Below, piece after piece: positions 6,687-64,000 of a stretch of 64,000 nt of DNA. The translations under genes were made by a program, and so were the position numbers. The DNA is from Cyanobacteriota bacterium SRBZ.bins.94.201705 (GTDB taxonomy: Bacteria > Cyanobacteriota > Cyanobacteriia > Cyanobacteriales > Cyanobacteriaceae), in assembly GCA_030549855.1 (NCBI GenBank), contig JAUQQP010000049.1, forward strand, positions 1-64,000. The letters run 5' to 3'. Numbering within the stretch: the first letter of the stretch is position 1; each line of letters begins with the position of its first letter. The notes below the pieces were generated by a model. That model did not search any database. It saw nothing but the letters and a program-made list of their open reading frames with translations, and was not told the DNA's origin.

Positions 6687-9600
6687 ATGTTTACTTTTGT
6701 CAAGTCGGCGGTAAGAAGGATAGTACCAGAAGACATACAAGGTCGTGCTTTAATGAGGGTGGTATATGTGGTGTTAGAGTCGCAATACCAAAGTGCCATA
6801 ACCACGGCGGTAAAATCCATCAACACCCATAACCCCAATTTGGCAGTAGAAGTAAGTGGGTATTTGATAGAGGAGTTGAGAAATCCGGAAAACTACGAAC
6901 AGTTCAAAAAAGATGTTTCCCAGGCTAATGTGTTTATTGCTTCTTTGATTTTCATAGAGGAGTTGGCACAGAAGGTAGTAGCGGCAGTACAACCCTATCG
7001 GGACAAAATAGACGTGATAGTGGTATTCCCCTCCATGCCAGAGGTAATGCGGCTGAATAAAATGGGCAGCTTTAGCATGTCTCAGTTGGGGCAAAGCAGA
7101 AGTGTCATCGGGGAATTCATGAAAAAGAGTAGACAGAAGGCGGGGGCTTCTTTTGAGGATGCGATGCTGAAGTTATTACGTACCTTGCCCACGGTATTGA
7201 AGTATCTGCCGGTGGAAAAAGCTCAAGACGCCCGCAATTTCATGTTAAGTTTTCAATACTGGTTGGGAGGATCACCGGAGAATCTGGAAAACTTCCTGTT
7301 GATGCTGGCAGACAAGTATGTCTTTACCGGGGAGAAGTCTTTGGTGAAAAAACTGGGCTATGCTGAGCCAATAGTATATCCTGACATGGGCATATGGCAT
7401 CCCCTGGCCCCCAAAATGTTTGAGAATATAAAAGAATACCTCCAATGGTACAACAGTAGGGATGATATCGATGATAGTCTAAAAGCTCCCTCAGCTCCTT
7501 GTATAGGCTTGGTACTACAAAGAACTCACCTGGTAACGGGGGATGATGCCCACTATGTGGCAATGGTACAAGAATTGGAATATAGGGGGGCAAGGGTAAT
7601 CCCGGTGTTTGCAGGGGGGTTGGACTTTTCTAAGCCGGTGGACGAGTATTTTTGGGATAAGCCGGTGCAAGGAGTGTCTCCTGTGCCTATTGTAGATGCG
7701 GTAGTATCTTTGACGGGGTTTGCCCTGGTGGGAGGGCCAGCCAGACAAGACCACCCGAAGGCAATAGAATCCCTGAAAAGACTGAATCGCCCCTACATGG
7801 TAGCTCTCCCCTTAGTATTCCAGACTACTGAGGAGTGGGAGGAAAGTGACTTGGGTTTACATCCCATCCAGGTGGCTTTGCAGATTGCTATTCCTGAGTT
7901 GGATGGTGCCATTGAGCCTATAGTATTGTCAGGGAGGGATGGTGCAACTGGCAGGGCTATTACCTTACAAGACAGGGTGGAGGCCATTGCCAAAAGGGCA
8001 CTAAAATGGGTTTCTTTGCGCAAAAAACCTAAGTGGGAGAAGAAAATAGCTATCACAGTGTTTAGCTTCCCGCCAGACAAGGGGAATGTAGGCACTGCCG
8101 CTTACCTAGATGTTTTTGGCTCAATCTATGAAGTATTAAAAGCCCTGAAGGAGAATGGCTATAATGTCCAAGACTTGCCCAATTCTCCTAAGGAGTTAAT
8201 GGAGATGATTATCCATGATCCGGAGGCGAAGTATGCAAGTCCACAGTTGAATATAGCCTACCGGATGAGTGTAGAGGAGTATGAGCGTCTGACGCCCTAC
8301 TCTCGCCGTCTGGAGGAAAATTGGGGGCCACCTCCAGGACAGTTAAACAGTGACGGGGAGAATCTGCTTATCTATGGCAGACACTTTGGCAATATCTTCA
8401 TTGGTGTCCAACCCACCTTCGGTTACGAGGGGGATCCAATGAGACTACTGTTTTCTCGCTCAGCCTCCCCTCACCACGGTTTTGCGGCCTATTACACCTA
8501 TCTGGAGAAGGTATGGGAAGCGGATGCGGTGTTGCACTTTGGCACCCATGGCTCGCTAGAATTTATGCCAGGGAAGCAGATGGGGATGTCAGGGGAATGT
8601 TATCCAGACAGTCTCATCGGCCATATACCCAACATATACTACTACGCCGCCAACAACCCCAGTGAGGCTACTATTGCTAAACGCCGTAGCTATGCGGCCA
8701 CTATATCCTATCTAACACCACCAGCGGAAAATGCGGGACTGTATAAGGGTTTAGAGGAGTTAAAGGACTTAATAGGCTCCTATCAGACGCTCAAAAGTGG
8801 TGGCAGAGGCATCCAAATTGTCAATACTATCATAGAAAAGGCGCGGCAGTGTAACCTGGACAAGGACATACCCGAGATAGGGGGAGAAATAGAGGCGGCT
8901 AATATATCGGAGGAGGAAAGAGACAGGATAGTAGGGGCAGTATACCGTAAATTGATGGAGATTGAATCCCGTCTGTTGCCCTGTGGGTTACATGTGATAG
9001 GCAAACCACCCACTGCCGAGGAGGCCGTTGCTACTCTGGTAAACATTGCCAGTGTGGACAGAGAGGAGGAGGGGATTGTCTCCCTACCTACCATCCTAGC
9101 CAGAAGCCTTGGCCGTGACATAGAGGAGATTTACCGGAATGCGGATAAGGGCATCTTAGCAGATGTGGAGTTGTTACAAAGGCTAACAGAGGCTACCAGG
9201 GAGGCGGTAAAAGCCCTTGTAGCAGAGAAAACCAATGAAGAGGGCAGGGTATCCTTAGTAGCCCGTTGGTTTGGGGGGAAAAAACCGGCACCCTTGGCCA
9301 AATTGGAGGAATTGGGCTACGCTGTGGACGAAAAGGCCCTTAAGCCTCTGTTAGAATATCTAGAATCCTGCCTAGAACTTCTCTGTGCGGACAATGAGTT
9401 ACAATCCCTCCTAAAAGCCCTAGATGGGGAATATGTATTACCTGGGCCTGGGGGCGACCCAATACGTAACCCGTCTGTATTACCAACAGGAAGGAATATT
9501 CATGCCTTAGACCCCCAAAAAATACCAACGCTAGCGGCAGTAAAATCGGCAAAAATAGTGGTAGACAGACTGTTAGAGCGTCAAAGACAGGAAAACGGCG

Positions 9601-10676
9601 GCAAATACCCAGAAACCATAGCCTGTGTCTTATGGGGGACTGACAATATCAAAACCTATGGAGAATCCTTGGCCCAAATCCTGTGGATGGTGGGGGTAAA
9701 ACCAGTGCCCGACGCCCTGGGAAGGGTTAACAAACTGGAATTAATACCCCTAGAGGAGTTGGGGAGACCCCGCATCGATGTAGTAGTAAACTGTTCAGGG
9801 GTATTTCGGGACCTGTTCCTCAACCAAATGGCCTTGTTAGACCAGGCTATCAAAATGGCTGCGGAAGCCGATGAGCCCCTAGAAATGAATTATGTCCGTA
9901 AACATGCCCTCGAAATGGCTGCTGAGTTGGGCGTGGATTTGCGTAAGGCAGCTACCCGTGTATTTTCAAATGCTTCGGGGTCCTATTCGGCCAACGTAAA
10001 CCTGGCGGTGGAAAACAGTAGCTGGGAAGACGAACAACAGTTGCGGGAGATGTACCTAAACCGTAAATCCTTCGCCTTCGATTCCGACAACCCCGGCATA
10101 ATGAAGGAAAACCGTGCCATCTTTGAAAAAGCCCTTGCCACTGCCTCCGTCACCTTCCAAAACCTAGACTCCTCTGAAATCAGTCTCACTGATGTCTCCC
10201 ATTACTTTGATGCTGACCCCACCAAGGTAGTGGCCTCTTTGCGAAAAGATGGCAAGAAACCAGCCGCCTACATCGCCGATACCACTACTGCTAACCCCCA
10301 AGTGCGCACTCTTGCCGAGACTGTCCGTCTCGATGCCCGCACCAAACTCCTCAATCCCAAGTGGTATGAAGGTATGCTTTCCCATGGCTATGAGGGGGTC
10401 AGGGAGTTGTCCAAACGTCTTGTCAACACCATGGGTTGGAGTGCCACTGCTGATGCTGTCGACAACTGGGTTTACGAGGAAACCAATGAGACTTTTATCA
10501 AAAACGAGCAAATGTGTAAACGTCTCATGGAATTGAATCCCCACTCCTTCCGTAAAATTGTCGGCACCCTCCTAGAAGTCCACGGCCGTGGCTACTGGCA
10601 AACCTCCCAGGACAACATCGAACGTCTCCAACAACTCTATCAGGATATTGAAGACCGTATCGAGGGTGTAGAATAA
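6687..10676 (+). CDS. chlH: Magnesium chelatase subunit H
   Basis: ChlH is the large porphyrin-binding subunit of magnesium chelatase. With ChlI and ChlD it inserts Mg2+ into protoporphyrin IX at the first committed step of chlorophyll synthesis. The 1329-residue length is the usual size. The N-terminal DUF3479-type domain begins with [19 protein letters not shown]; the CobN/Mg-chelatase domain follows, including [29 protein letters not shown], the [15 protein letters not shown] motif and a C-terminal [21 protein letters not shown]. Conserved His and Glu residues of the active cleft appear in these motifs. A GGAG sequence lies 12 bases before the ATG. About 250 bases without a gene follow; I see no clear terminator hairpin there. 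Confidence 0.97.
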
Positions 10677-10926
10677 TTCCCTCTGGGGGCTACGGGCTTT
10701 TCCCCCCGTCCCCCACCCCCCAAAAAAATTGCTATCTATTTGCAATAAAAAAATGCTCAGCCCAAATGTTTTGGCAGTCCCTTCGCCTGCCGCCTATTAC
10801 ATCCATCTTACCCCGGCCGCCCCCCTACCGTCAAGGGAAAAATGTAAATTTTTGTAAAAAAAAAGAAAATAATAATGTGAACTAGAGGAGGAAATAGTAG
10901 GCAAAAAAAAAAGAGAAAGGGGAAAA

Positions 10927-12525
10927 ATGTCACTGTCGCAGCTGATTGCCCTGATGGTGGGGCTAAGTATAGTTTTGGGGTTGGGGTTGTGGTTGGTAAC
11001 CAGTTTGGCAAGGCTTTATAGTGAGATAGCCTGGACAAGTCCACTGTTGGCAAATTTGTTGGTATTTGTGGTGATAATATTGCTGATAGGTATAGGGGGA
11101 ATAGTTATATACTATTTGGGGAGTGGAATAGGGAAAAAAGGGAAAAAAAGGAGACCAAAGAGGAGAAAACTGGGGGAAATAGGGAGGAAAGCAGGAGGGA
11201 AAAAGCAAATAGCAGAGGAGACATTGGCGGGGATAAAAAGACAATTAGCCCAAATACAAGATGAGGTGGCAAAAAGGGCGTTGTTGGCAAAACAACAGGC
11301 AATGGAGGCGAGTTTAAAACGTGGCAGCCTAAAAGTAGTGGTGTTTGGCACAGGCAGTGCGGGCAAAACGTCACTGGTGAATGCCTTAATGGGAGAAATA
11401 GTGGGAGAGGTAAGGGCAAGTATGGGCACCACTAAGGAGGAAATGTGTTATACCCTAAAACTGCCGAATGTAGACCGAGAAATTATACTGGTAGATACGC
11501 CGGGGATTCAAGAAATGGGGGTACCAGGGGATATTCGCGAACAATTGGCAAGAGAATTGGCAGTATCAGCGGATTTGTTGATATTTGTGTGCGATAACGA
11601 TGTGACGGCAACAGAATTCAAAATCCTAAAAGCGTTGGCAAGTATAGGGAAACGGACGGTGTTAGTATTCAACAAAATTGACCTATACTCGGAAGAGGAA
11701 CAGGAAACAATTATCAGGCAGCTAAAAGAGAGAGTAAAGGGGATAATACCGGCAGAAGATGTAATAAAAGCCTGTGCTAACCCCCAACCAGTAGAATTCT
11801 CAAAGGGGGAGACTGTTACGCCAGAAGTGGAAGTGACGGGTGTAGTAAGGCGACTGGCAGCAATCTGTCGCGCCGAGGGGGATGATTTGCTGGCAGACAA
11901 TATCCTGTTACAGTCAAAGCAGTTGGGAGAGGAGGCAAAAAGACTAATCAGTAAACAGCGAAACCGTCAGGCTGAACAGATTATAAACCGTTACCAGTGG
12001 ATAGGGGCAGGGGTAATCGTCTGTACACCACTACCAGTAATTGACATGTTGGCAGCGGCGGCAGTAAATGCCCAAATGGTAGTAGAAATAGGACAGGTGT
12101 ATGGTTGCCAGTTAAACCGGGAAACGGGAAGGGATTTGGCAGTGTCTCTGGGAAAAACCCTTGTGAGTCTGGGGATTGTCAAAGGGGTAGTAGAGATGGT
12201 GGCAAGAGCGCTACAAGCGACAGCGGCCACCTATCTGGTAGGCAAGGTAATTCAGGCCATCAGTGCCGCCTATCTCACCCGGATTGCAGGCAAGAGTTTC
12301 ATAGAATACTTCAGTCATGACCAGGATTGGGGGGATGGAGGGATTACAGAGGTAGTACAAAGACAATTTGAATTGAATCGCAAAGAGGAGTTTATCCGTG
12401 CCTTTGTCCAGGATGCCATAGAAAAGGTGATTGAGCCAATAAGGGAAACCCTAGATTTCCAGAAGGCAGAGGAGGTAGAAGAGGAGGAAGATTGGGAGGA
12501 AGAATGGGGGGATTGGTTGTCCTAG
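10927..12525 (+). CDS. Membrane-anchored GTPase with DUF697 domain
   Basis: The 532-residue protein starts with two transmembrane helices (about 5-27 and 41-65), then a very basic linker (KKGKKRRPKRRK) and a coiled-coil segment. An Era-like GTPase domain follows: P-loop GTGSAGKT (141-148), G3 DTPG (190-193), G4 NKID (249-252). A C-terminal DUF697/YcjF-like helical domain follows (about 325-500) with the hydrophobic GAGVIVCTPLPVIDMLAAAAV stretch. The extreme C terminus is acidic with tryptophans (DWEEEWGDW), like the PRC-barrel protein tail at 380-1348. Such proteins are found across cyanobacteria; their role is unknown and membrane remodelling or stress signalling are guesses. It is monocistronic by spacing, with GGGGAAAA before the ATG. 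Confidence 0.85.
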   Translation: MSLSQLIALMVGLSIVLGLGLWLVTSLARLYSEIAWTSPLLANLLVFVVIILLIGIGGIVIYYLGSGIGKKGKKRRPKRRKLGEIGRKAGGKKQIAEETLAGIKRQLAQIQDEVAKRALLAKQQAMEASLKRGSLKVVVFGTGSAGKTSLVNALMGEIVGEVRASMGTTKEEMCYTLKLPNVDREIILVDTPGIQEMGVPGDIREQLARELAVSADLLIFVCDNDVTATEFKILKALASIGKRTVLVFNKIDLYSEEEQETIIRQLKERVKGIIPAEDVIKACANPQPVEFSKGETVTPEVEVTGVVRRLAAICRAEGDDLLADNILLQSKQLGEEAKRLISKQRNRQAEQIINRYQWIGAGVIVCTPLPVIDMLAAAAVNAQMVVEIGQVYGCQLNRETGRDLAVSLGKTLVSLGIVKGVVEMVARALQATAATYLVGKVIQAISAAYLTRIAGKSFIEYFSHDQDWGDGGITEVVQRQFELNRKEEFIRAFVQDAIEKVIEPIRETLDFQKAEEVEEEEDWEEEWGDWLS

Positions 12526-12617
12526 CTTGGGGGGAGGTGTAGGGGGAATTGTGAAAAGATGGTAAGATTATTGTGGCTGTGAAAATTTACCAGTAGAGGA
12601 AAAGGAAGTATTGATAG

Positions 12618-13601
12618 ATGGCAGAAACCTTAATGTTTAATGCTTTGCGCCAGGCAATAGACGAGGAAATGGCCAGAGATGATAGAGTATTTGTGTTGGG
12701 GGAGGATGTGGGACATTACGGAGGGTCCTATAAGGTAACCAAGGGGTTGTATAAAAAATATGGGGAGTGGAGAGTATTGGATACACCCATTGCGGAAAAC
12801 AGCTTTACAGGGATGGCCATAGGGGCAGCTATAACCGGATTACGCCCCATAGTAGAGGGGATGAATATGGGGTTTTTGCTGTTAGCCTTTAACCAAATTG
12901 CCAATAATGCCGGGATGCTACGGTATACCTCTGGTGGAAATTTTAAAATACCAATAGTAATCCGTGGGCCAGGGGGGGTAGGCAGACAGCTTGGTGCCGA
13001 ACATTCCCAACGATTGGAAGCCTATTTTCAGGCAGTACCAGGTTTAAAAATTGTGGCCTGTTCTACTCCTTATAATGCCAAGGGGCTGCTAAAATCTGCC
13101 ATTAGAGACGACAATCCCGTAATCTTCTTTGAACACGTCCTCCTCTACAATTTAAAACAAAACATACCAGATTACGAATATACTTTACCTTTAGACAAGG
13201 CAGAGATAGTAAGAAGAGGGAAGGATGTAACCATATTGACCTACTCTAGAATGAGGCATCACTGTCTGGAGGCGGTAAAACAGCTAGAAAAGGAGGGATA
13301 TGATCCGGAGATAATAGACCTAATTTCCCTAAAACCCCTAGACATGGCAACCATTGGCGAATCGGTGCGGAAAACCCACAAGGTGGTGATAGTAGAGGAG
13401 TGTATGAAGACTGGGGGTATTGGGGCAGAGTTGATAGCCCTGATAAATGAACAACTCTTCGACGAATTGGACGCACCGGTGATTCGTCTTTCTTCTCAGG
13501 ATATTCCAACCCCCTACAATGGGACATTAGAAAGACTCACCATCGTCCAACCAGAGCAGATAGTAGAAGCAGTGCGTAAGATTGTCAACAACCAGATTTA
13601 A
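12618..13601 (+). CDS. pdhB: Pyruvate dehydrogenase E1 component, beta subunit
   Basis: This subunit forms the alpha2beta2 E1 enzyme that decarboxylates pyruvate with thiamine diphosphate and passes the acetyl group to lipoyl-E2, feeding acetyl-CoA to lipid synthesis. The 327-residue length is typical. Landmarks are [21 protein letters not shown] near residue 25, the [23 protein letters not shown] segment with the Glu that activates thiamine diphosphate, [15 protein letters not shown], and the C-terminal transketolase domain [17 protein letters not shown]. The alpha subunit gene is not nearby, as is common in cyanobacteria. It is followed 91 bases later by secD-secF, an arrangement I recall from other cyanobacteria. 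Confidence 0.96.
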
Positions 13602-13608
13602 TCTCACC

Positions 13609-13660
13609 CAGGCGTAGTGTGGGGGTTTATAATAGACCCTTAAAATCTGTCCTACGCCTG
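13609..13660 (+). promoter_or_regulatory. Nested inverted repeat between pdhB and secD
   Basis: CAGGCGTAG (13609-13617) and CTACGCCTG (13652-13660) form a perfect 9-bp inverted repeat around a 34-base interior. Inside it, 13623-13639 can form a second hairpin of 7 pairs (GGGTTTA with TAGACCC, one G-U) around a 3-base loop. That interior also contains TATAAT (13628-13633). In RNA this would be a two-tier hairpin shortly ahead of the secD start codon; there is no U-tract, so a simple terminator is unlikely. It may be a leader element, a processing site or a protein-binding palindrome. Confidence 0.5.
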
Positions 13661-13692
13661 TTAGTCGAGGCAATTATGGGAGAAGAGGCCGG

Positions 13693-15105
13693 ATGGAAAG
13701 ACAAAGGGCTTTAGTGTTATTGATTATAATCCTGGTGACAGCGGCGATTGTAACACTAGTAAAGTTGCCACTCCAGTTGGGGTTAGACTTAAGAGGAGGC
13801 TCACAGTTAACTATACAACTGAAGACTACGCCAGAAGTGCCCACTATAACCCCGGAGAAACTGGAGGGGGTGAAGACAGTAATCAGTAATAGGGTTAATG
13901 GGTTGGGGGTATCAGAGGCGGTAGTGCAGACGGTAGGCAATGATCGTATTCTAGTACAACTACCTGGCGTCAGTGACCCCCAAGAAGCAGAAAGGGTACT
14001 GGGGGGGACAGCTATGCTAGACTTCCGTCTAGAAACGGACAATCCCCAACTGAGGGCCCAATATCAGATAAAACAACAGGAATTAGCCAGTTTAATTATA
14101 GCCTCTCAGTCCTTGTCGGGGGAGGAGTTGGAAAAACAGGAGGAGAAGATAAAGGCAGTAAAAAGGGAGATTAAGGAGATACTAGACAGGTTGTACCAGA
14201 AAACGGGGTTAAACGGCGAAAAATTACAAACAGCCACCTATCAACCCAGTCCACAGGGGAATGCCTGGGAGGTGGTATTAGAATTTAACAGCGAGGGGGG
14301 GAAACTGTTTGCAGAATTGACCAAACAGCTGGCAGGTACTGGACGTACTTTGGGGATATTCCTGGATGACCAATTAATCAGTGCCCCTACAGTAGGTGCC
14401 GAGTATGCTAAAACGGGGATTATTGGCGGCAGGGCGACTATTTCTGGGGGGGGAGGCTTCACCTTGGAACAGGCGAGGGAATTAGCACTACAATTAGAGG
14501 GGGGAGCACTACCAGTACCGGTAGAAATAGTGGAAAATAGGACGGTAGGGGCGACTTTAGGACAGGATAGTATTCGTCGCAGTGTGGTAGCTGGGGTAGT
14601 GGGACTAGTGCTGGTGTTGGTATACATGGTAGTATACTATCGTCTACCGGGACTGATTGCCGACATTGCCCTGACAATATACGCCCTTTTAACACTAGCC
14701 TGTTTTTCCCTTGCCGGCGTCACCTTGACTTTGCCGGGGATAGCCGGGTTTATTCTAAGTATTGGTATGGCAGTAGACGCCAATGTGTTGATTTTTGAAA
14801 GGACTAGAGAGGAGTTAAGACAGGGGAAGACGCTGTATAGGGCGGTGGAGTCGGGATTTTATAGGGCCTTTTCTAGTATCCTAGATGGGAATGTGACCAC
14901 ACTGATTGCCTGTGCCGCCCTTTTCTGGTTAGGTTCAGGGTTAGTAAAGGGTTTTGCCCTGACACTGGCCATTGGGGTGTTGGTAAGTATGTTTACTGCC
15001 CTAACTTGTAGTCGTACCTTCATGTTGATAACGGTACTAGGTTTTCCTGCCATTCGTCAACGGCCTGAATTATTCTGTCCTAATATCAAACCTGCAGATA
15101 GTTAA
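13693..15105 (+). CDS. secD: Protein translocase subunit SecD
   Basis: SecD works with SecF in the cytoplasmic or thylakoid membrane and uses the proton gradient to help pull substrates through SecYEG. The 470-residue protein has an N-terminal membrane helix followed by [19 protein letters not shown], a periplasmic P1 domain (about 45-290) with a charged insert, and six C-terminal membrane helices. These include the hallmark [22 protein letters not shown] and [24 protein letters not shown]. Stop and secF start are separated by 14 bases with a GGAGG-type ribosome site, so secD-secF form an operon. Confidence 0.96.
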
Positions 15106-15119
15106 AAGAGGGAGGAAAG

Positions 15120-16088
15120 ATGTCCTTCAAAGTCATCAGGTGGCAAAGGGTATGCTGGTTGTTTTCTGCTATTTTTTGCCTTGGGAGTATTGCCGCCATG
15201 ATAATCTCTTATAACTCCCTGGGTGCTATTATTCGTCCCAGTTTGGACTTTGTGGGGGGTACTAGATTACAAATGGAGTTAGACTGTAGTGTAGCCAATA
15301 ATTGTGATCAACCTCTAACGGTAAACAGGGTAAGGAAGATTCTGGAAACCCAGGGATTGGCCAACAGTAGTATTCAGATAGTGGGGAAGGAACAAAAGAC
15401 TATCTCCATCCGCACTAAAAATCTAGATGTAGAGGCCAGGACAAGGCTACAGGAGGCTTTGACAAAGGGCATAGGTGTTTTCAAACCAGAAAGCATGCAA
15501 ATCGACACTGTAGGGCCTACTATTGGCCGGGAATTGTTTATTTCTGGTAGTATAGCCCTTTTAGTAGCCTTTATAGGGACGGTGGTATATCTAAGTGTAA
15601 GATTTCAGAAGGACTATGCCGTTTTAGCGATAGTAGCCCTTTTCCACGACGTGTTGATAACCTGTGGGGTATTTGCGGTGTTGGGTTTACTAGCGGGGGT
15701 AGAAGTGGACAGTCTGTTTCTGGTAGCCTTACTGACGATTATTGGTTACTCAGTGAATGACACAGTGGTGATTTACGACAGGGTAAGGGAGATTACCAAG
15801 ATGGGGGATAGTGACGATATTGAAGACATAGTCAACAGGGCAGTGGAACAGAGTCTAACACGTTCCCTTAATACTAGTTTAACCACACTTTTGCCCCTGG
15901 TGTCCATATTTTTGTTTGGGGGGGAAACCTTAAAATATTTTGCCCTTGCCCTAATTGTAGGTTTTGTGTGTGGGACTTATTCTAGTATCTTTATAGCCAG
16001 TACAATGCTAGCCTGGTGGCGAAAAAGAAATAACTGGCACAATCCCCAATTTAGGGCAGAAATGCAACAATCCCCCTCTCCCTCTTAA
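15120..16088 (+). CDS. secF: Protein translocase subunit SecF
   Basis: Partner of SecD in the SecDF complex. The 322-residue protein shows the family layout: a first membrane helix near residues 12-32, [14 protein letters not shown], a short periplasmic domain (about 45-140), then five membrane helices. These carry [16 protein letters not shown] and the C-terminal [24 protein letters not shown]. The conserved Asp/Arg of the D..V.YDR motif are present. Its stop codon overlaps the stop codon of the convergent sufR gene (shared TTAA), so the two 3' ends have no dedicated terminator between them. Confidence 0.96.
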
Positions 16089-16729
16089 TCCTGCCTATAG
16101 GCTATCAGATAACCACAGTGATGTTGCCCCTCATTAATCCAACTGGTCCTTTCTACCTTACAATCTGGGAAGAGGGAGGCAAACATTTCCAACTCATGAC
16201 TACACACCTGGGGGTAGGATTCGGCCACTTCTGCTATAGCACAATTGTGTTCAGAAATAAAAAACTCAGGCGGATTGTCTCGCAGCAGAAAAAGTTCAGC
16301 CATATACCCCTCTTTTCTTCTGATGGCCACTAGTTGGTTTAATCTTTCTGCCAAGGACTTTCCTGTCAGTAGACGACGATAATTTTCTGCTTTTTTCTGC
16401 CATTGTTTAGCCAACACCTGGGAAACCGCCTTTTCCCCCACCGTTTCCGTTAGAGTTTCCAAAAAAGACACAGCAAACTCCCCGTAGTTTTGGGGGAATA
16501 AGTCCCTTCCCTGACGAGATAAATAATACAAATGTAGTGGGCGGCCAGTCTTATTGTGTACCACCTCATATTCTACCAAACCCTGTTCGTGGAGGTCCTT
16601 GAGGTGGCGGCGAATGCCCTGGGGGCTAATCCTCATGGCTTTGGCAATGGCTTGCACCGACGCCCGATTCTCCTTCAGAAGGTATTGTAATATGGCCTCC
16701 TTACTAGCCTGTTGTGGGGAAGTAATCAT
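16085..16729 (-). CDS. sufR: Iron-sulfur cluster biosynthesis repressor SufR
   Basis: SufR is a cyanobacterial DeoR-like repressor that carries Fe-S clusters and represses sufBCDS when clusters are sufficient. The 214-residue protein has an N-terminal winged helix-turn-helix (about 10-60, [20 protein letters not shown]). At the C-terminal end are four cysteines at 163, 176, 190 and 205 spaced CX12CX13CX14C, which is exactly the SufR ligand pattern. A good ribosome site (AGGA) precedes the ATG. Unlike the textbook arrangement, sufBCDS is not divergent from it; the neighbour is a pseudopilin-like operon. A perfect SufR operator lies 41 bases ahead of the start codon, so autorepression is likely. 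Confidence 0.95.
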
Positions 16730-16770
16730 AATCTTCCTCGTATCCTGTCACCCTATTGCCCCTATTAAAA

Positions 16771-16784
16771 CAACAACTATGTTG
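16771..16784. promoter_or_regulatory. SufR operator (CAAC-N6-GTTG)
   Basis: The sequence CAAC, six bases (AACTAT), GTTG is a perfect inverted repeat. It equals the published Synechocystis SufR recognition sequence as I remember it. It lies 41 bases ahead of the sufR start codon and about 220 bases ahead of the divergent pseudopilin-like operon at 17002. The position suits repression of sufR itself. The pilin operon has its own candidate -10 (TATAAT, 16908-16913) further away and may not be affected. Confidence 0.75.
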
Positions 16785-17001
16785 CTTAACTCCTCAGTAT
16801 AGCATCCCTTAATGGCCCCTCTATGGCCCCAAATCCCTGGTAATTCCAGTAACAATCTCAGTGACAATTAAGTACAAATCCCATGGTCTGACGGCGAAAA
16901 TATCTAATATAATATAGGCAGCAGTAGCCTAGACGTGTTGTAGAGGAAAACATAAAGTTTCATTGAGAATTGATAATAAAAGTAAAAAAGGGGGGAAGAA
17001 A

Positions 17002-18528
17002 ATGAAAAATAAGGGGGTGGATGAATTAAGATTTTGGCTTTGGTGGCACCGGCTTCAATCTCAAAAAAAAGAGGCAGGCAATACCCTATTGGTGGCCATA
17101 GCATTGGGCTTGTTGTTAATGGTGGGGACAAGTATATCTCTGTTAAACTCTTCTAGGGCAAAAACCAATGCCAAATCCTCAGAATCCAGTCAACAAGCCA
17201 TGGCGGTAGCCGAATTGGGGGTAGCAAGAGTCCATGATTTTTTGGTGCGGAATCCTGTTTTAGCTACCCATAATTCGACAGAATGGGATAATCTGGCAGG
17301 TACTACCCAAATAGTAGGCACTTTTACTAACACCAGCAGTGGTACCTCCAGCTGTCAGAATATTGTCAACGCTAGTGGCTTTTCTCCCCTGACTACCACC
17401 ATAGAAAGGTTTAAAACCAGCGGAGACTTGGTGGAAGAAAACAACCCGCGCAAGGGAGGGATAAAGGTGGTAGACTACAGGTATGAGGAAATAATGCCCC
17501 AGGCAAATGCTAGTAACGGGCAAATATACGCCTATGGACACCTGACGGTAAAAGGCCAAATCAACCCCATTGCTAATAACGTCAGCGAAGTATTTGACAG
17601 GGATAATTCCTCTGTCTCCAAGGCACAAGTGAAGGTAAAAATCCCCCTCAGAAAAAACACTACCCCTTTTACCTTCCCCGGGGTTTGGATTAGTAACCAG
17701 GCAATCCAGTCTCCTACAAATAGTATTATCCAGGCTAACCTGCTAGTGCCCAGTTGTAATAACATGGGGCTGCAAATAGCCTCTGGGTATCAGGTGATCC
17801 TCTCTCCTATTGCCAATGAGTTTCCCCCCCTCCCCACTCCCCCAGCAGACAATAACCCGAGATACTACAACCTAGGCGATGTCACCAATTCTATCACACT
17901 TCCCAGAGCAACAGATGAACCCATTGAAACGGAAACAGTAGTCCATAACGGCAACACCTATCAGGTCAAAGTCTACAAGTACAAGGTAAACAGTATAAAC
18001 CTAAATGGTGGAGAGAAAATAACTATTATACCGGGGAGGAAGGTGGTATTGCACGTATACGGGAACATATCCCTCGGTGGTAGCCAGGTAATAGACAACA
18101 GATGTACTAGCGTCTCTGGGAGCTACACCTGTGATAATAATACCAAGATTGTAACCTACCAGGGCGGGGAACAAAGCGTTTTTCGGAGGGAGAATCTGGT
18201 AATTCTGGGTTACGCAAGAAATACGGGGCCTGCTACCAGCACTGAGCCTAGTATCTGTCTGGCGGGGGGGGCAGAGATATTTGGATTTGTATTCGCCCCG
18301 GATTATGCTGTAGGTGCAGCCGGCACTGGTAATGGCAATGGCTTTACGGGGGCGGTTTGGGCAAGACTGTTTAATCCCCCCAGCGTCTGTGGCTCTAATA
18401 CCGGTCAGGTAGTTGTAGTTCAAGATATTACCGATTGGGGCTTCCTAGAAGGGGTGGGCATAAGAATGGGTAATCTGCCACCTAAGGTGGATAAAATCAT
18501 CGAGTGGGAAAGAAAGGAGGCTAACTGA
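17002..18528 (+). CDS. PilX-like large minor-pilin protein, function unknown
   Basis: A secreted or membrane protein of about 508 residues. After a basic N terminus it has one hydrophobic helix (AGNTLLVAIALGLLLMVG, about residues 25-45) followed by SISLLNSSRAKTNAKSSESSQQAMAVAELG, the arrangement of PilX-type minor pilins, which lack the classic Glu5. The remainder is Asn/Thr/Ser/Gly-rich with paired cysteines (for example CTSVSGSYTC), typical of an exported beta-rich domain. The start is placed at the ATG at 17002, preceded by GGGGGAAG; the frame also extends to a TTG at 16963. Its TGA overlaps the ATG of the next gene, so the three genes are translationally coupled. It might belong to a type IV pilus or to the related hormogonium polysaccharide secretion (hps) group. 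Confidence 0.7.
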   Translation: MKNKGVDELRFWLWWHRLQSQKKEAGNTLLVAIALGLLLMVGTSISLLNSSRAKTNAKSSESSQQAMAVAELGVARVHDFLVRNPVLATHNSTEWDNLAGTTQIVGTFTNTSSGTSSCQNIVNASGFSPLTTTIERFKTSGDLVEENNPRKGGIKVVDYRYEEIMPQANASNGQIYAYGHLTVKGQINPIANNVSEVFDRDNSSVSKAQVKVKIPLRKNTTPFTFPGVWISNQAIQSPTNSIIQANLLVPSCNNMGLQIASGYQVILSPIANEFPPLPTPPADNNPRYYNLGDVTNSITLPRATDEPIETETVVHNGNTYQVKVYKYKVNSINLNGGEKITIIPGRKVVLHVYGNISLGGSQVIDNRCTSVSGSYTCDNNTKIVTYQGGEQSVFRRENLVILGYARNTGPATSTEPSICLAGGAEIFGFVFAPDYAVGAAGTGNGNGFTGAVWARLFNPPSVCGSNTGQVVVVQDITDWGFLEGVGIRMGNLPPKVDKIIEWERKEAN

Positions 18529-58045: not shown

Positions 58046-60751
58046 ATGCTAAAGGATAAATCCCATGACGTGATGCGCTACCATCACAACCCCCTCAGTT
58101 TTATGTTTGCCCCTTCCTCGGTAGCCTTGATTGGGGCGTCGGAAAAAGAAGGAAGTGTGGGGAAAACTCTTCTTTGGAATCTCATCAGTAACCCCTTCGG
58201 TGGCACCGTATATCCCGTCAACCCCAAACGGAAAAATGTCATGGGCATTAAAGCCTATCCTACCATAAAAGACGTACCAGAGCCCGTAGAATTAGCAGTT
58301 ATTGCCACTCCGGCGGCTACTGTACCAGATATTGTCAGGCAATGTGTAGAAGTAGGAGTAAAAGGGGCAATTATTATCTCCGCCGGTTTTAAGGAAATAG
58401 GCCCCAGTGGCTTACAATTAGAACAAGAAATTCTAAAAGAAGCTAGAAAGGGTAACCTTAGAATTATAGGCCCTAATTGTCTCGGTTTGATTTGTCCTCC
58501 CACCGGCTTAAATGCCAGTTTTGCCAGTCGCACCCCCCTCAAAGGGAATGTAGCCTTTATCAGTCAAAGTGGCGCCTTTTGTACAGCTATCCTAGACTGG
58601 AGTTTAAGGGAAAATCTGGGATTTAGTGCCTTTATCTCCATAGGTTCTATGTTAGACGTTGGCTGGGGGGATTTGATCTACTATTTCGGCGATGATCCCC
58701 TCACCCAAAGTATAGTAATATATATGGAATCAGTAGGAGATGCCCGCTCATTCATCTCCGCCGCAAGAGAGGTAGCCCTATCTAAGCCTATTATAGTAAT
58801 CAAGGGAGGACGCACTCAAGAGGCTGCTAAAGCCGCGGCTTCCCACACTGGCGCCATGAGTAGTAGTGATAGAGTCTTGGCGGCTGCCTTTCGTCGTTGT
58901 GGTGTACTACAAGTAGATACGGTAAAAGAAATATTTAACATGGCAGACTTGTTAGCCAAGCAGCCTCGCCCCAAAGGTAATCGTCTGACTATTGTAACAA
59001 ATGCCGGCGGCCCTGGAGTACTAGCTACAGACGCCCTCACCTGGGGAAAAGGCAAGTTAGCTGAGTTGAGTGATACCACCATGGCTGCCCTCAATGAGAT
59101 TTTACCCCCCCATTGGAGTCATGGCAACCCCATTGATATTCTAGGCGATGCTACCCCAGACCGTTATGCTAAAACCTTGGAAATAGTATCTCAAGATCCC
59201 AATACTGATGGCTTTTTAGTTATTCTAACACCCCAAGACATGACTGACCCCACCGGCACTGCCATTGCCTTAACCAAAGCCGCTGAAAAAGTCAAAGACA
59301 AACCTATTCTTGCCAGTTGGATGGGGGGTGACAGTGTCGCCGAGGGGGTAGAAATCCTAAATAGGGCTAACATTTATACTCAACCCTATCCCGATGATGC
59401 CGCCCGTTTATTTAACCTCATGTGGCGGTATAGTTATAATCTAAAGGGACTATATGAAACCCCCAGTTTATCAGAATCCTCCCTGGTATATAACAGCCTC
59501 CCTCGAACTGAAGTCAATAATATCATCCAAAAAGCACACAGTCAAAATCGTACCCTGTTAACAGAATACGAGTCAAAACGTCTTCTTAGTATCTATGGCA
59601 TCCCCACTGTAGAAACCCACATTGCCACCACCAGGGAGGAAGCTATTAGCCTTGCTGAGAAAATAGGATACCCAGTAGTTTTGAAACTCCATTCGGAAAC
59701 CATTACTCACAAAACCGATGTAGGCGGTGTTAAACTAAACCTCACCAAGCCAGAAGAGGTAGCAGAAGCCTTTAATGACATCAAAACAAGAGTATCTGCA
59801 TCTGACTTCTTGGGTGTTACTGTCCAGAAAATGGTAATTCTCAGGGGGTATGAGGTAATTATAGGTAGTACTGTTGACCCCCAATTCGGCCCCGTGATAC
59901 TATTTGGCACAGGAGGACAACTAGTAGAAGTATATCAGGATCAGGCCATTGCCCTCCCTCCCCTCAATACCACCCTTGCCCGAAGATTAATGGAGCAAAC
60001 TAAAATCTATACAGCCTTAAAAGGAGTAAGAGGAAGAAAAGCAGTAGATTTAAACAAACTAGAGGAGATTTTGGTAATATTCAGCCAACTAGTCCTAGAA
60101 AACCCCCTCATTAAGGAAATAGACATAAATCCCCTGTTAGTATCCCCCGAGGAAATGATAGCACTAGATGCCAGGGTCTTACTATACCCCCCCAATACCA
60201 AACCAGAAGAAATTATACCCCCTGCCATCCGCCCCTATCCCAGTCAATATATCACTCCCCACTCCCTCTCCAGTGGCTTGACTATTACCATTCGCCCCAT
60301 TCGTCCAGAAGATGAACCCCTTGTGGTACAATTCTTCCGGGAGTTGTCTCAAGAGAGTGTTTATCTGCGTTACTTCCACTCCATCAGTCATCAATCCCTA
60401 ATCTCCCATGAAAGACTTGCCAGAATTTGCTTTGTGGATTATGATAGGGAGATAGCACTAGTGGCCGAGTCTCCCCAAAAAGAAATCATGGCCATTGCCC
60501 GTCTGAGTAAAGTGCATGGGGAAGAGGAAAAGGCCGAGTTAGGTATTCTTGTTAAAGATAAATATCAAAAACAGGGACTAGGTACACTTATTTGTCGACA
60601 ATTGATAGATATAGCTGGCAAAGAGGGAATCAGGGAGATTATTGCCGAAATGTTGCCCGAAAATTTGGGTATGCAAAACCTCTGTCGCCGACTCGGTTTT
60701 CATATGGAAAAACAAGAAGACATCGTCAAGGCTACCCTTACTGTCGCCTAG
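58046..60751 (+). CDS. NDP-forming acyl-CoA synthetase/GNAT acetyltransferase fusion
   Basis: A 901-residue multidomain protein. CoA-binding and succinyl-CoA-synthetase-like domains fill about residues 10-450 ([79 protein letters not shown]). An ATP-grasp domain follows at about 490-720 ([39 protein letters not shown]). A GNAT domain occupies about 745-895 ([56 protein letters not shown]). This is the layout of PatZ/Pat protein lysine acetyltransferases. The SHTGA histidine, which carries phosphate in active NDP-forming synthetases, is present, so synthetase activity may be kept. Confidence 0.9.
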
Positions 60752-60839: not shown

Positions 60840-63002
60840 CTAACCAGACATGGCAATTAATTTTTTCACCTCAGCAATCTCTTTAGCCAGATTTTTCTCT
60901 CTTTCCTTTAACACATCTAAATTGGCTTGAATCACTACCTGTTTTTTCTCCACTTCCTTCAGGTATTCTTCATAGGTTTCCCCGACAACTTCCAGAGAAT
61001 TCTCCAGTCTACTTGCCTCATAATCTAGGGCAATATTTATGTCTTGGATAATTTTTTCCACCAGGTTTTTACTTAAAGATTGGTAGTAACTGCTCACCTC
61101 TTTGCGTAATTTTTCTGCCGCCTCTTCTAATTTTAAATTGTTGTCTTGGTTGTAGGAGGTTATTAGGAAAAAAATCAGGGCGAAAACAGCTAGGCCCAAC
61201 AAAAAAGGAAAACGTTTAAAGACAAGAGAGACTTGGGCAAACATTTCATTTTTACCTACTTTAAGGCCCAAAAGTGCAAAGAGTAAAGTGGCCATCATCA
61301 TAATCTGCATTAAATTGGAGCGAATGGATTTCATAACAAAGGCAGGCAGGGAATCCTGTTTGTGACGCACCTCGCTTTCAATAGTCATAAAAGAAACCAA
61401 AAAATTCCCCCTAATGTCTAAATCAGCCGGGGGATTGAAGGGAGAATGTGGAAACAAGTCGGGGAGAAAATTTATGTAATCATAACAGCGATTCAGCAAG
61501 CCAATTAAACCCCCATTTCCGTAGAGGTGTAAAACTTTTTCCCACTCCTTATTAGCCCAAGTTTCCAGGTTTTCAACAATAAAATTAATAAGAATTTCAT
61601 TGACGTCACCGGTATCATGAGAATCAATAGCAAGTTTAACGTGAGGTTGGCCTTCCTTTTTAAACACAACTGGTTTTAAATTATCTACAAAATTCTGGAC
61701 TTGACCGACGATACTTTTTCTGCTAAAATTGTCCAGGAGGGCGGCTTTAGCTTGGTTTAAATCCCACCTAACTTGTTTAAAGAATTTTTCCTTGTCCTCC
61801 TTGACTTGCGCCAGGGCATTCTTGATTAATTCTTTCCAGTTTTTGCCAACAAGACTTTGTTTTTCATTCTGAAGGTTAGTAATTTTTTGTCTTAATTCGT
61901 CATATTCTTCCTGTAGGATTTTCTCGAGAGGCAAAATCAAGGAAGCCAGTTTGACACTCAGCCGTTTGGCTAAAAGATTTTCCGGTTGTCGTTTGGTGAT
62001 GTTGCCGAAAGCCTTGACAAATTTATCATATCTTTTTTGCATTGACTTGGAGAGAAAATCCAGGGGGAAGTCTTCTTGATAGTAGGGAGTCAGGGTGAGG
62101 GGATAAAATTCGACTTTGTATGGCAGACTGAGAGACTCCAACCAGGCTTCCCACTGGCTAATTGTGGCTTCTAATGATTTCTCCTCCTCTGTGACAGGCA
62201 AATCCAATAACAGGAAATACTTAGAAATCTTTTCCCCATTCAAGGTTTTAAGGAATGAGGTGAGTTTTTCCCACTGATAACCCTTGTAATCGGCAACCAG
62301 TAACAAGACATCACAGTCGATTACATCATAATAGGGGTGATTTTCGTCTATGGTGGGAGTAACCGCCTCTTGTTGAAAATACCAACAGGCAATCCCCTCC
62401 TTGTAGGAAGGATAAGCCAAAGTGATTATATCCCTGTCTTGGAGGATGACACTGCCATTGATTCTTTCCCCGTTAACAAAAACACCATTACGACTATTTA
62501 AATCCTCAACAACCCACTTTTTTTCCCCCCCGCTGACTGTTGTCTTAATTGCCGCATGTTGCCAGGAAACTCCCCTATAAACACTACCATCCAGAAACAG
62601 ATTCAGTTGGGGATTCCTTCCCATAACATACTCATTATCTTCCTGGAGGAGGTATTCCTGGTCAACGACAATATTATCTTGAAGGAATCTGACTAACTTC
62701 AACCTAGTAACAGACTGGTTTTGATTTCCATTGGCTACAGGGAATTCTGGCAGTAAGTCATATTTTATGTCATAGGCTTGCTGGGAATCTGGTATCTGTG
62801 TGAGTAAATCAAATCCGGCTTGACCTAGTTTCTCCTCCTCGGCTACTATTTGAAGTGTGAGTTTCTTAGACTGGAGGGAGGCTTCTATTTTGTTGATTTG
62901 AACAAGAATACCCCCTAACTCTGGGTATTCGGCCAATTGACGATTACAAAGAGTTTTAACAGTCTCAATAATCTGTTGCAACTTATCAGCTTTTGGAGGC
63001 AT
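60840..63002 (-). CDS. FHA domain protein with dynamin-like membrane topology, no P-loop
   Basis: A 720-residue protein. The first 100 residues are helical; an FHA domain (about 103-210) has GRN (128-130), SWQH (146-149) and NSRNGVFVNG (169-178), the phosphothreonine-binding loops. Residues 225-275 (CDVLLLVADYKGYQ and KYFLLLDLP) resemble the second half of a GTPase fold, but no P-loop or DxxG precedes them. A long helical region (340-560), two membrane helices (about 565-582 and 599-616) and a C-terminal coiled coil (625-720) follow, as in bacterial dynamin-like proteins. I do not recognise a named family. It follows the protease gene by 30 bases on the same strand, so the two are likely one operon. 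Confidence 0.75.
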   Translation of the reverse strand: MPPKADKLQQIIETVKTLCNRQLAEYPELGGILVQINKIEASLQSKKLTLQIVAEEEKLGQAGFDLLTQIPDSQQAYDIKYDLLPEFPVANGNQNQSVTRLKLVRFLQDNIVVDQEYLLQEDNEYVMGRNPQLNLFLDGSVYRGVSWQHAAIKTTVSGGEKKWVVEDLNSRNGVFVNGERINGSVILQDRDIITLAYPSYKEGIACWYFQQEAVTPTIDENHPYYDVIDCDVLLLVADYKGYQWEKLTSFLKTLNGEKISKYFLLLDLPVTEEEKSLEATISQWEAWLESLSLPYKVEFYPLTLTPYYQEDFPLDFLSKSMQKRYDKFVKAFGNITKRQPENLLAKRLSVKLASLILPLEKILQEEYDELRQKITNLQNEKQSLVGKNWKELIKNALAQVKEDKEKFFKQVRWDLNQAKAALLDNFSRKSIVGQVQNFVDNLKPVVFKKEGQPHVKLAIDSHDTGDVNEILINFIVENLETWANKEWEKVLHLYGNGGLIGLLNRCYDYINFLPDLFPHSPFNPPADLDIRGNFLVSFMTIESEVRHKQDSLPAFVMKSIRSNLMQIMMMATLLFALLGLKVGKNEMFAQVSLVFKRFPFLLGLAVFALIFFLITSYNQDNNLKLEEAAEKLRKEVSSYYQSLSKNLVEKIIQDINIALDYEASRLENSLEVVGETYEEYLKEVEKKQVVIQANLDVLKEREKNLAKEIAEVKKLIAMSG

Positions 63003-63032
63003 TTTGACAACCTCTTGCCACGGTGTCAGGTG

Positions 63033-63836
63033 TCACTGGGATTGGTTTAAAAACTGTTGAATTGTGGTGACGGGTATTCCCCAACTCAACTGACTGAAGT
63101 CTTGTATTTCTTTTTCATCCACCTGTTTACCATCCTGATAAACATAGGGGTTACCGAGGGGAGGAAATTTCCCCAAGCCATTAATGCCAATCAATTCCCC
63201 CCTACGGTTTAGTATAGCACCACCACTCATCCCAGTGTGGATCAAATTAGTGTATCCCAACTGATAGCCTCCTACTAGGGGTTTGTCTAGGATTTTAGCC
63301 AATATTCCCCTGGTGTGGGTGATTTGCATTGACTGTTTTAGATTTTGTTGGAAGGGGAAGCCAGTGGCAAAAACAGACTCATTCTCCCTGGGAAGATTTT
63401 CGCTAAACTTGATGGTAGGGTATTTATCTTGGGAAGCAAATCTTAGCAAAGCCAAATCGTAGTAATCCTTGCTAGAGGTGACAGTATTTTTTTTGACGAT
63501 TTCAGCGGGGTAGATTTTTCCATCATAGACGGCAATTTTGTAGGGATAATTCTCCCCCTCAACTACATGATGGCAAGTAATAACATAATAGTTACCCTCC
63601 TGGTGGTAAATTATAACCCCTGATCCCCCAGTATCTCCTCCTAGGGATGAGAAAATTCTTACGGTGATTTTAGCAGCAATATCTCTTATTCCCCCCTCAG
63701 ATAAAACAACGTCTGGAGGGCGTTTTTTTTTAATATCCTTGGTGAGAAAACGATTAAACCAAAATCTATTAAGAGAGAATAAAGCAACAGACAAGGCTAT
63801 TATCAGCAATAAGTGTGTTTTTCGGAGATAAGACAT
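63033..63836 (-). CDS. Membrane-anchored trypsin-like serine protease
   Basis: A protein of about 267 residues. One N-terminal membrane helix (about 7-27, THLLLIIALSVALFSLNRFWF) is followed by a basic stretch and an S1-type protease domain (about 50-265). The catalytic triad is visible: His90 in TCHHVVEG, Asp127 in YYDLALLRF and Ser204 in HTGMSGGAIL. The oxyanion motif GxSGG is intact. There is no PDZ domain, unlike HtrA/Deg. The active site would face the periplasm or lumen. The start is uncertain (63836 or 63857; the frame extends to 63953); I see no good ribosome site. It is the first gene of a pair with the FHA protein. Confidence 0.85.
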   Translation of the reverse strand: MSYLRKTHLLLIIALSVALFSLNRFWFNRFLTKDIKKKRPPDVVLSEGGIRDIAAKITVRIFSSLGGDTGGSGVIIYHQEGNYYVITCHHVVEGENYPYKIAVYDGKIYPAEIVKKNTVTSSKDYYDLALLRFASQDKYPTIKFSENLPRENESVFATGFPFQQNLKQSMQITHTRGILAKILDKPLVGGYQLGYTNLIHTGMSGGAILNRRGELIGINGLGKFPPLGNPYVYQDGKQVDEKEIQDFSQLSWGIPVTTIQQFLNQSQ

Positions 63837-64000
63837 AAGAGAAAAAGCTAAATCCATGTTATAATCACTGTACCTGTCAAGAAACACCAGGGGAAGCTGG
63901 CAATAGCCAATCACTGGTAAGGTAAAGCTAAACCAGCTACCAGTGACTAGCATTGGTAGATAACCAACAAAACAAGTAGAATCGTTTTGGTCAGCTTATG

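Follow-up and report, generated by a model that had tools for sequence, protein, structure and literature searches.

Dynamins are membrane-shaping machines that use GTP, and the family is defined by GTP-driven membrane work. The nearest described relatives of the protein analyzed here, designated MEM, are the bacterial dynamin-like proteins (BDLPs), including Nostoc BDLP (2J68/2J69), Campylobacter DLP1/DLP2 (5OWV), IniA (6J72) and SynDLP (7ZW6). Their match to MEM is colinear, running from the final portion of the G domain through the stalk to the C-terminal helix, and they share with MEM a membrane hairpin where the tip is located. Unlike them, MEM has no P-loop and no NKxD motif, carries an FHA domain instead of the nucleotide core and is clustered with kinases and coiled-coil proteins and not with a second dynamin. 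The P-loop GxxxxGK[S/T] (G1) is listed for all BDLPs (PMC5827413).

The remaining parts of the locus also have described counterparts. GarA/OdhI, FhaB and Rv1747 share with MEM a canonical FHA domain with conserved phosphothreonine-binding residues and a location near Ser/Thr kinases, and MEM differs from them in that its FHA domain is built into a membrane protein derived from dynamin. The protease encoded next to MEM resembles HtrA/DegS in combining an N-terminal anchor with an H/D/S protease domain, but a PDZ domain was not found with Pfam and its NCBIfam scores against HtrA/DegS are far under the cut-off (best 61 bits versus 416). Trypsin, FHA and NTPase-type modules are combined in cyanobacterial NTP-dependent conflict systems (Kaur et al. 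2020, PMC7159879); the MoxR, vWA, VMAP and DO-GTPase components of those systems were not recognized in the MEM cluster, and the word dynamin is absent from the text of that article. No description of a protein combining FHA and dynamin parts was found in a literature search that had most subscription journals and all preprints outside its range, and the literature checked on cyanobacterial and bacterial dynamins does not mention FHA domains. The MEM family and its gene cluster are apparently undescribed.

The window analyzed here is a stretch of 64,000 bases, corresponding to bases 1-64000 of the 66,230-base contig C47 from a 2.87-Mb draft genome (G000). The COP23 proteins encoded nearby and a close relationship to the other genomes analyzed suggest that the source is a cyanobacterium. 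Both genes of interest, and all of their features listed below, are on the minus strand. MEM, an FHA-containing dynamin relative without a P-loop, is a 720-aa protein encoded at 60840..63002, and its FHA domain (residues 125-195, 62418..62630) is identified by Pfam with E=2.1e-15. Upstream of MEM is the gene for a membrane-anchored trypsin-like protease with an S1/HtrA-type domain (63033..63836, 267 aa). The protease reading frame remains open to 63953, giving 306 aa for 63033-63953, and a start at Met40 yields the 267-aa form ending at 63836. The FHA protein and the 30-base spacing between the two genes reported in the first-pass annotation agree with these ORF coordinates. MEM is not a chance ORF: an orthologue in another genome shares 81% of its residues, and those in further genomes share 50-60%.

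Several additional features were observed around these genes and in related genomes. A gene for a CoA-binding/ATP-grasp ligase fused to a GNAT acetyltransferase domain (58046-60751, plus strand) is convergent with MEM in the window, with 88 bases between the two; in genome G001 (locus L040, 1-11173), urea-transport-like and urease genes separate the CoA-ligase gene from MEM. A row of three large FHA proteins, all on the same strand and with open frames of 723-886 aa, is present at G000:C16:34732-40266. The MEM gene of G002 (L045, 1279-3444) has an in-frame stop and the protease of that genome is interrupted too, and the MEM gene of G397 (L205, 6056-8234) is split into two frames. These interruptions may reflect either decay or sequencing error.

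For the profile analysis, MEM homologues were gathered from whole genomes, the FHA domain was cut out and 38 members were aligned into a profile. The comparison profiles consisted of cyanobacterial dynamins from relatives in groups A, B and C, where group B contains six proteins, groups A and B combined contain 12 cyanobacterial dynamins and group C consists of proteins the size of SynDLP. Profile-profile comparison of MEM with groups A+B gives P=1e-11 (score 105, 432 columns) and with group B alone P=1.1e-8 (433 columns), where each P-value refers to a single comparison with a small dynamin alignment. For calibration on the same scale, group A matches group C with P=2.5e-9 and group B matches group C with P=2.7e-10; the MEM family thus matches the dynamins approximately as well as accepted dynamin groups match one another. 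Group C itself shows no direct match to the MEM profile. When the dynamin profiles are reversed or column-shuffled, the score with MEM does not rise above 25, against 79, and kinase and coiled-coil profiles likewise do not exceed 25. MEM is homologous to the dynamin superfamily. The Der, Era, MnmE-like and Obg GTPases were also considered as closer relatives of MEM and were rejected (scores of at most 30, P>=0.007).

The alignment begins in the final portion of the G domain, at the strand formed by residues ~228-236, and from there follows the stalk, membrane hairpin and C-terminal helix in colinear order. The MEM segments involved are a G-domain remnant with a beta-alpha-beta-alpha-beta pattern (residues 228-335, 61998..62321), the first long stalk helices (residues 343-428, 61719..61976; AlphaFold2, weak model), a two-helix membrane hairpin at the position of the dynamin paddle or tip (residues 562-616, 61155..61319) and a C-terminal long helix or coiled coil that aligns with the C-terminal dynamin stalk helix (residues 619-718, 60849..61148). 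The hairpin consists of two hydrophobic segments at 562-582 and 598-616, and the membrane hairpin, long helices and coiled coil proposed earlier are recovered, the helices by a weak AlphaFold2 model. Judged from the profile alignment and this hydrophobic pair, with models that are weak, MEM has a helical trunk with a membrane-binding tip between the trunk helices. When tested alone, the G remnant scores 30 and the stalk part 49, and both are above the reversed, kinase and coiled-coil controls for the same part.

Direct searches of Pfam, NCBIfam and PDB sequences with MEM recognize the FHA domain alone. Structure prediction was performed with AlphaFold2 using alignments of two sequences, which resulted in a pLDDT of 46 for full-length MEM and a pLDDT of 54 with a pTM of 0.41 for residues 205-720. 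These weak models contain a beta-alpha-beta-alpha-beta arrangement at ~232-302 followed by long helices that extend to the C-terminus. With either model, the Campylobacter DLP pair (5owv/5oxf) leads the Foldseek results against the PDB (E=4e-5 and 5.5e-5), closely followed by S-OPA1, BDLP, IniA and SynDLP. Because the models are weak and the TM-scores are low (0.1-0.2), these ranks rest on local similarity and are not proof of the fold. The comparison of a predicted structure with dynamin folds, which had been suggested as a check, places bacterial dynamins at the head of the PDB list by local agreement of weak models, and the earlier pseudo-dynamin proposal draws its support from the controlled profile-profile match together with these Foldseek results.

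The dynamin likeness could alternatively reflect long helices and a membrane hairpin only, in which case MEM would be an unrelated FHA scaffold. The weak models, a sequence identity to dynamins of about 14% and an N-terminal part that is not significant when taken alone are what would be expected under that explanation. It is nevertheless very unlikely, since no match is obtained with the kinase, coiled-coil, reversed and shuffled controls, the G remnant exceeds its controls when taken alone, the alignment is colinear over 430 columns and the PDB lists are led by dynamins.

The nucleotide-binding motifs of dynamins are missing from this homologous framework. None of 46 MEM family members contains the P-loop GxxxxGK[ST], and inspection of the aligned MEM block by eye revealed no NKxD, including in the G-domain remnant. 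MEM likewise lacks the G3 DxxG and the G4 N/TxxD or RD motifs that mark catalytic BDLPs. The FHA insert stands in place of the G3 region, and the FHA domain as a whole occupies the position that G1-G3, and switch I to switch II, would have in a dynamin G domain. The absence of a P-loop observed in the first reading of the sequence holds for all 46 members. Within the N-terminal region (residues 1-112, 62667..63002), residues ~32-57 can be placed, as to register only, opposite the helix and beta-1 strand ahead of the dynamin P-loop. This region alone does not match dynamins significantly (P 0.06-0.22), and its best local matches to dynA, dynB and dynAB are in each case to the helix and strand that immediately precede the P-loop. 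A forced global alignment places AEEEKLGQA opposite the P-loop.

In the FHA domain, which has the expected fold with its GR, SxxH and N residues, the phosphothreonine-binding positions G128, R129, S146, H149 and N172 are invariant among 13 aligned members. The absence of the P-loop and the conservation of the FHA pocket indicate that the nucleotide site was lost and a phosphopeptide site was kept. Phosphopeptide reading by an FHA domain is not universal in the family, because forms of MEM without FHA occur on two separate branches of the tree and the GR motif of the FHA domain is lost in the Pegethrix protein. The first FHA-less branch comprises L181, L189, L207 and L208 and the second L197 and L209, with lengths of 541-549 aa and 605-611 aa; members of the second are still located beside a kinase and coiled-coil array.

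Because the catalytic dynamin motifs are missing, MEM is called a dynamin-derived pseudo-GTPase and not a bacterial dynamin. That MEM still binds nucleotide in an unusual way and acts as a conventional dynamin is highly improbable: part of the G fold is retained and migrated motifs exist in some GTPases, but P-loop and NKxD are both missing and the place of G1-G3 is taken by the FHA domain.

The protease is matched by Pfam Trypsin_2 with E=2.7e-21 and has the His/Asp/Ser triad with GxSGG of S1 proteases. The triad given in the first-pass annotation (His90, Asp127 and Ser204) is right for the 267-aa numbering and corresponds to H129/D166/S243 in the 306-aa form, and the single N-terminal hydrophobic helix accounts for the membrane anchor. 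Gene neighborhoods were scanned for 47 MEM loci. The protease adjoins MEM on the same strand in seven of them (G000, G001, G002, G008, G012, G595 and G440), which span three families, with gaps of 28-66 bases in G000 and five others and 511 bases in G440. In six of these seven loci a two-partner secretion (TPS) exoprotein gene is divergent from the protease, and in the seventh (G002) the contig ends first. For the window's own genome this TPS gene begins about 70 bases past the end of the window (L039).

The short and recurrent same-strand spacing across three families, and the divergent TPS gene wherever the contig extends that far, would suit a two-gene system made up of these genes only, with the protease either cleaving the FHA protein or being under its regulation. 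The wider distribution makes such a system unlikely. Protease homologues are present in all 15 genomes of the window's family and MEM in seven, leaving eight with the protease and without MEM. In G004 and G007 the two genes are both present and far apart, and in G005 the protease lies beside TPS, kinase and COP23 genes without MEM; protease and COP23 genes also occur together in several further loci. Judging by topology, the protease domain would lie in the periplasm and the FHA/G-like part of MEM in the cytosol, a prediction that puts them on opposite sides of the membrane. The idea that the protease is the defining partner of MEM, and with it the expected conservation of the pair across relatives, is not supported by these counts. 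The pairing is accordingly downgraded to a local arrangement inside a larger cluster and is the weaker part of the account. The protease appears best placed with a TPS/COP23 module outside the cytoplasm, where it may process the TPS exoprotein or COP23.

The steadier partners of MEM are Ser/Thr kinases, an FHA-WD40 protein, a glutamate-receptor-like channel and a coiled-coil array. Of the 47 loci, 26 have a Ser/Thr kinase within 7 kb of MEM, often as its immediate neighbor, and HRD and DFG are present in most of these kinases. This gene order is in line with the kinase link drawn in the earlier annotation. Kinase-like proteins without HRD and DFG were also observed beside the glutamate-receptor-like channel (L257, 5904-7622; L041, 12366-14099; L042, 3488-5143; L186, 1636-3306).

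The strongest association of MEM is with the array, which consists of four to eight coiled-coil proteins of ~300-330 aa with apolipoprotein-like amphipathic helices. MEM is present, in a patchy distribution, in 55 of 391 genomes searched in the order, and the array marker (profile A5, a ~330-aa protein) is present in 27 of the 391, all of which are among the 55 MEM genomes. The naive hypergeometric P for this co-occurrence is about 1e-26, and because of shared ancestry the true probability is above that value. Within the window's family the array is present where MEM is present, also within one genus that shows both states, and the lone exception is G002, which is 67% complete. In the tree, array-linked MEM members fall in one clade (SH-aLRT 99), save for a second copy in G039. 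Arrays reach up to eight genes in fixed order in several genomes (L257 (G000:C17), 9061-17571; L258-L262; L266), one array gene encodes 525-553 aa and the C-terminus of the ~330-aa member is hydrophobic.

An anti-phage or conflict system with MEM as a membrane-disrupting effector, akin to the role in conflict with mobile elements raised in the first reading, is another way to view the patchy distribution, and the kinases and proteases do resemble PADLOC models. Those matches are generic to kinase and trypsin folds, however; the 720-aa MEM has no PADLOC model match, no plasmid match was found, and the presence of adhesin-type TPS, channel and COP23 genes suggests a task in the envelope or at the cell surface. 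Such a system is considered quite unlikely, and the mobile-element idea was not upheld. An FHA-motif scan of contigs returned one full-length MEM homologue, in Pegethrix (L053), and no MEM relative was found in viral contigs.

In the window's genome the array is located on contig C17 together with TpsB, COP23, FHA-WD40, the glutamate-receptor-like channel and a kinase-like protein without HRD and DFG; the lack of these motifs next to the array counts against the reading favored below. Contig C17 begins, and C47 terminates, within a TPS gene. Over the initial 172 residues the C17 sequence matches the terminal part of the C47 TPS protein at 82%, and the assembly of a second genome also breaks in this gene. 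For these reasons the C47 and C17 loci probably form a single cluster that an assembly gap has divided. In G440 the genes of both loci are contiguous.

The reading judged moderately probable is that MEM is a diverged dynamin-family protein that has ceased to bind nucleotide, bears an FHA domain where the nucleotide core would be and serves as a phosphothreonine-controlled membrane scaffold, with the protease belonging to a second module. What computation shows is the homology to dynamins, the missing P-loop, the conserved FHA pocket, the gene order and the co-occurrence; phospho-switching, scaffolding, the partners and the role are inferred. MEM, in which the last part of the G fold is retained along with the helical stalk and its tip hairpin, would form a membrane-attached scaffold. 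The adjacent Ser/Thr kinases would phosphorylate partner proteins on threonine, and binding of these partners by the FHA domain would control MEM assembly instead of GTP. The main partners of MEM are probably the ~300-aa coiled-coil array proteins, the FHA-WD40 protein and the channel, of which the coiled-coil proteins may be the partner that is assembled. The protease would act in an envelope-side module with the TPS exoprotein, its TpsB transporter and COP23, which is joined to MEM at this locus. An extension of this proposal, offered tentatively and with more doubt than conviction, is a phospho-controlled membrane cytoskeleton in which FHA replaces the nucleotide switch and kinases drive assembly of the coiled-coil array, linked to the glutamate-receptor-like channel and the secreted TPS exoprotein.

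If the favored reading is true, MEM represents a conserved family that keeps the dynamin stalk and membrane tip with the nucleotide core swapped for a phosphothreonine reader, and it would mean that a scaffold of this kind can run on signaling alone. Given how tightly MEM co-occurs with the coiled-coil array, the idea of a phospho-regulated membrane skeleton in bacteria can be put to the test.
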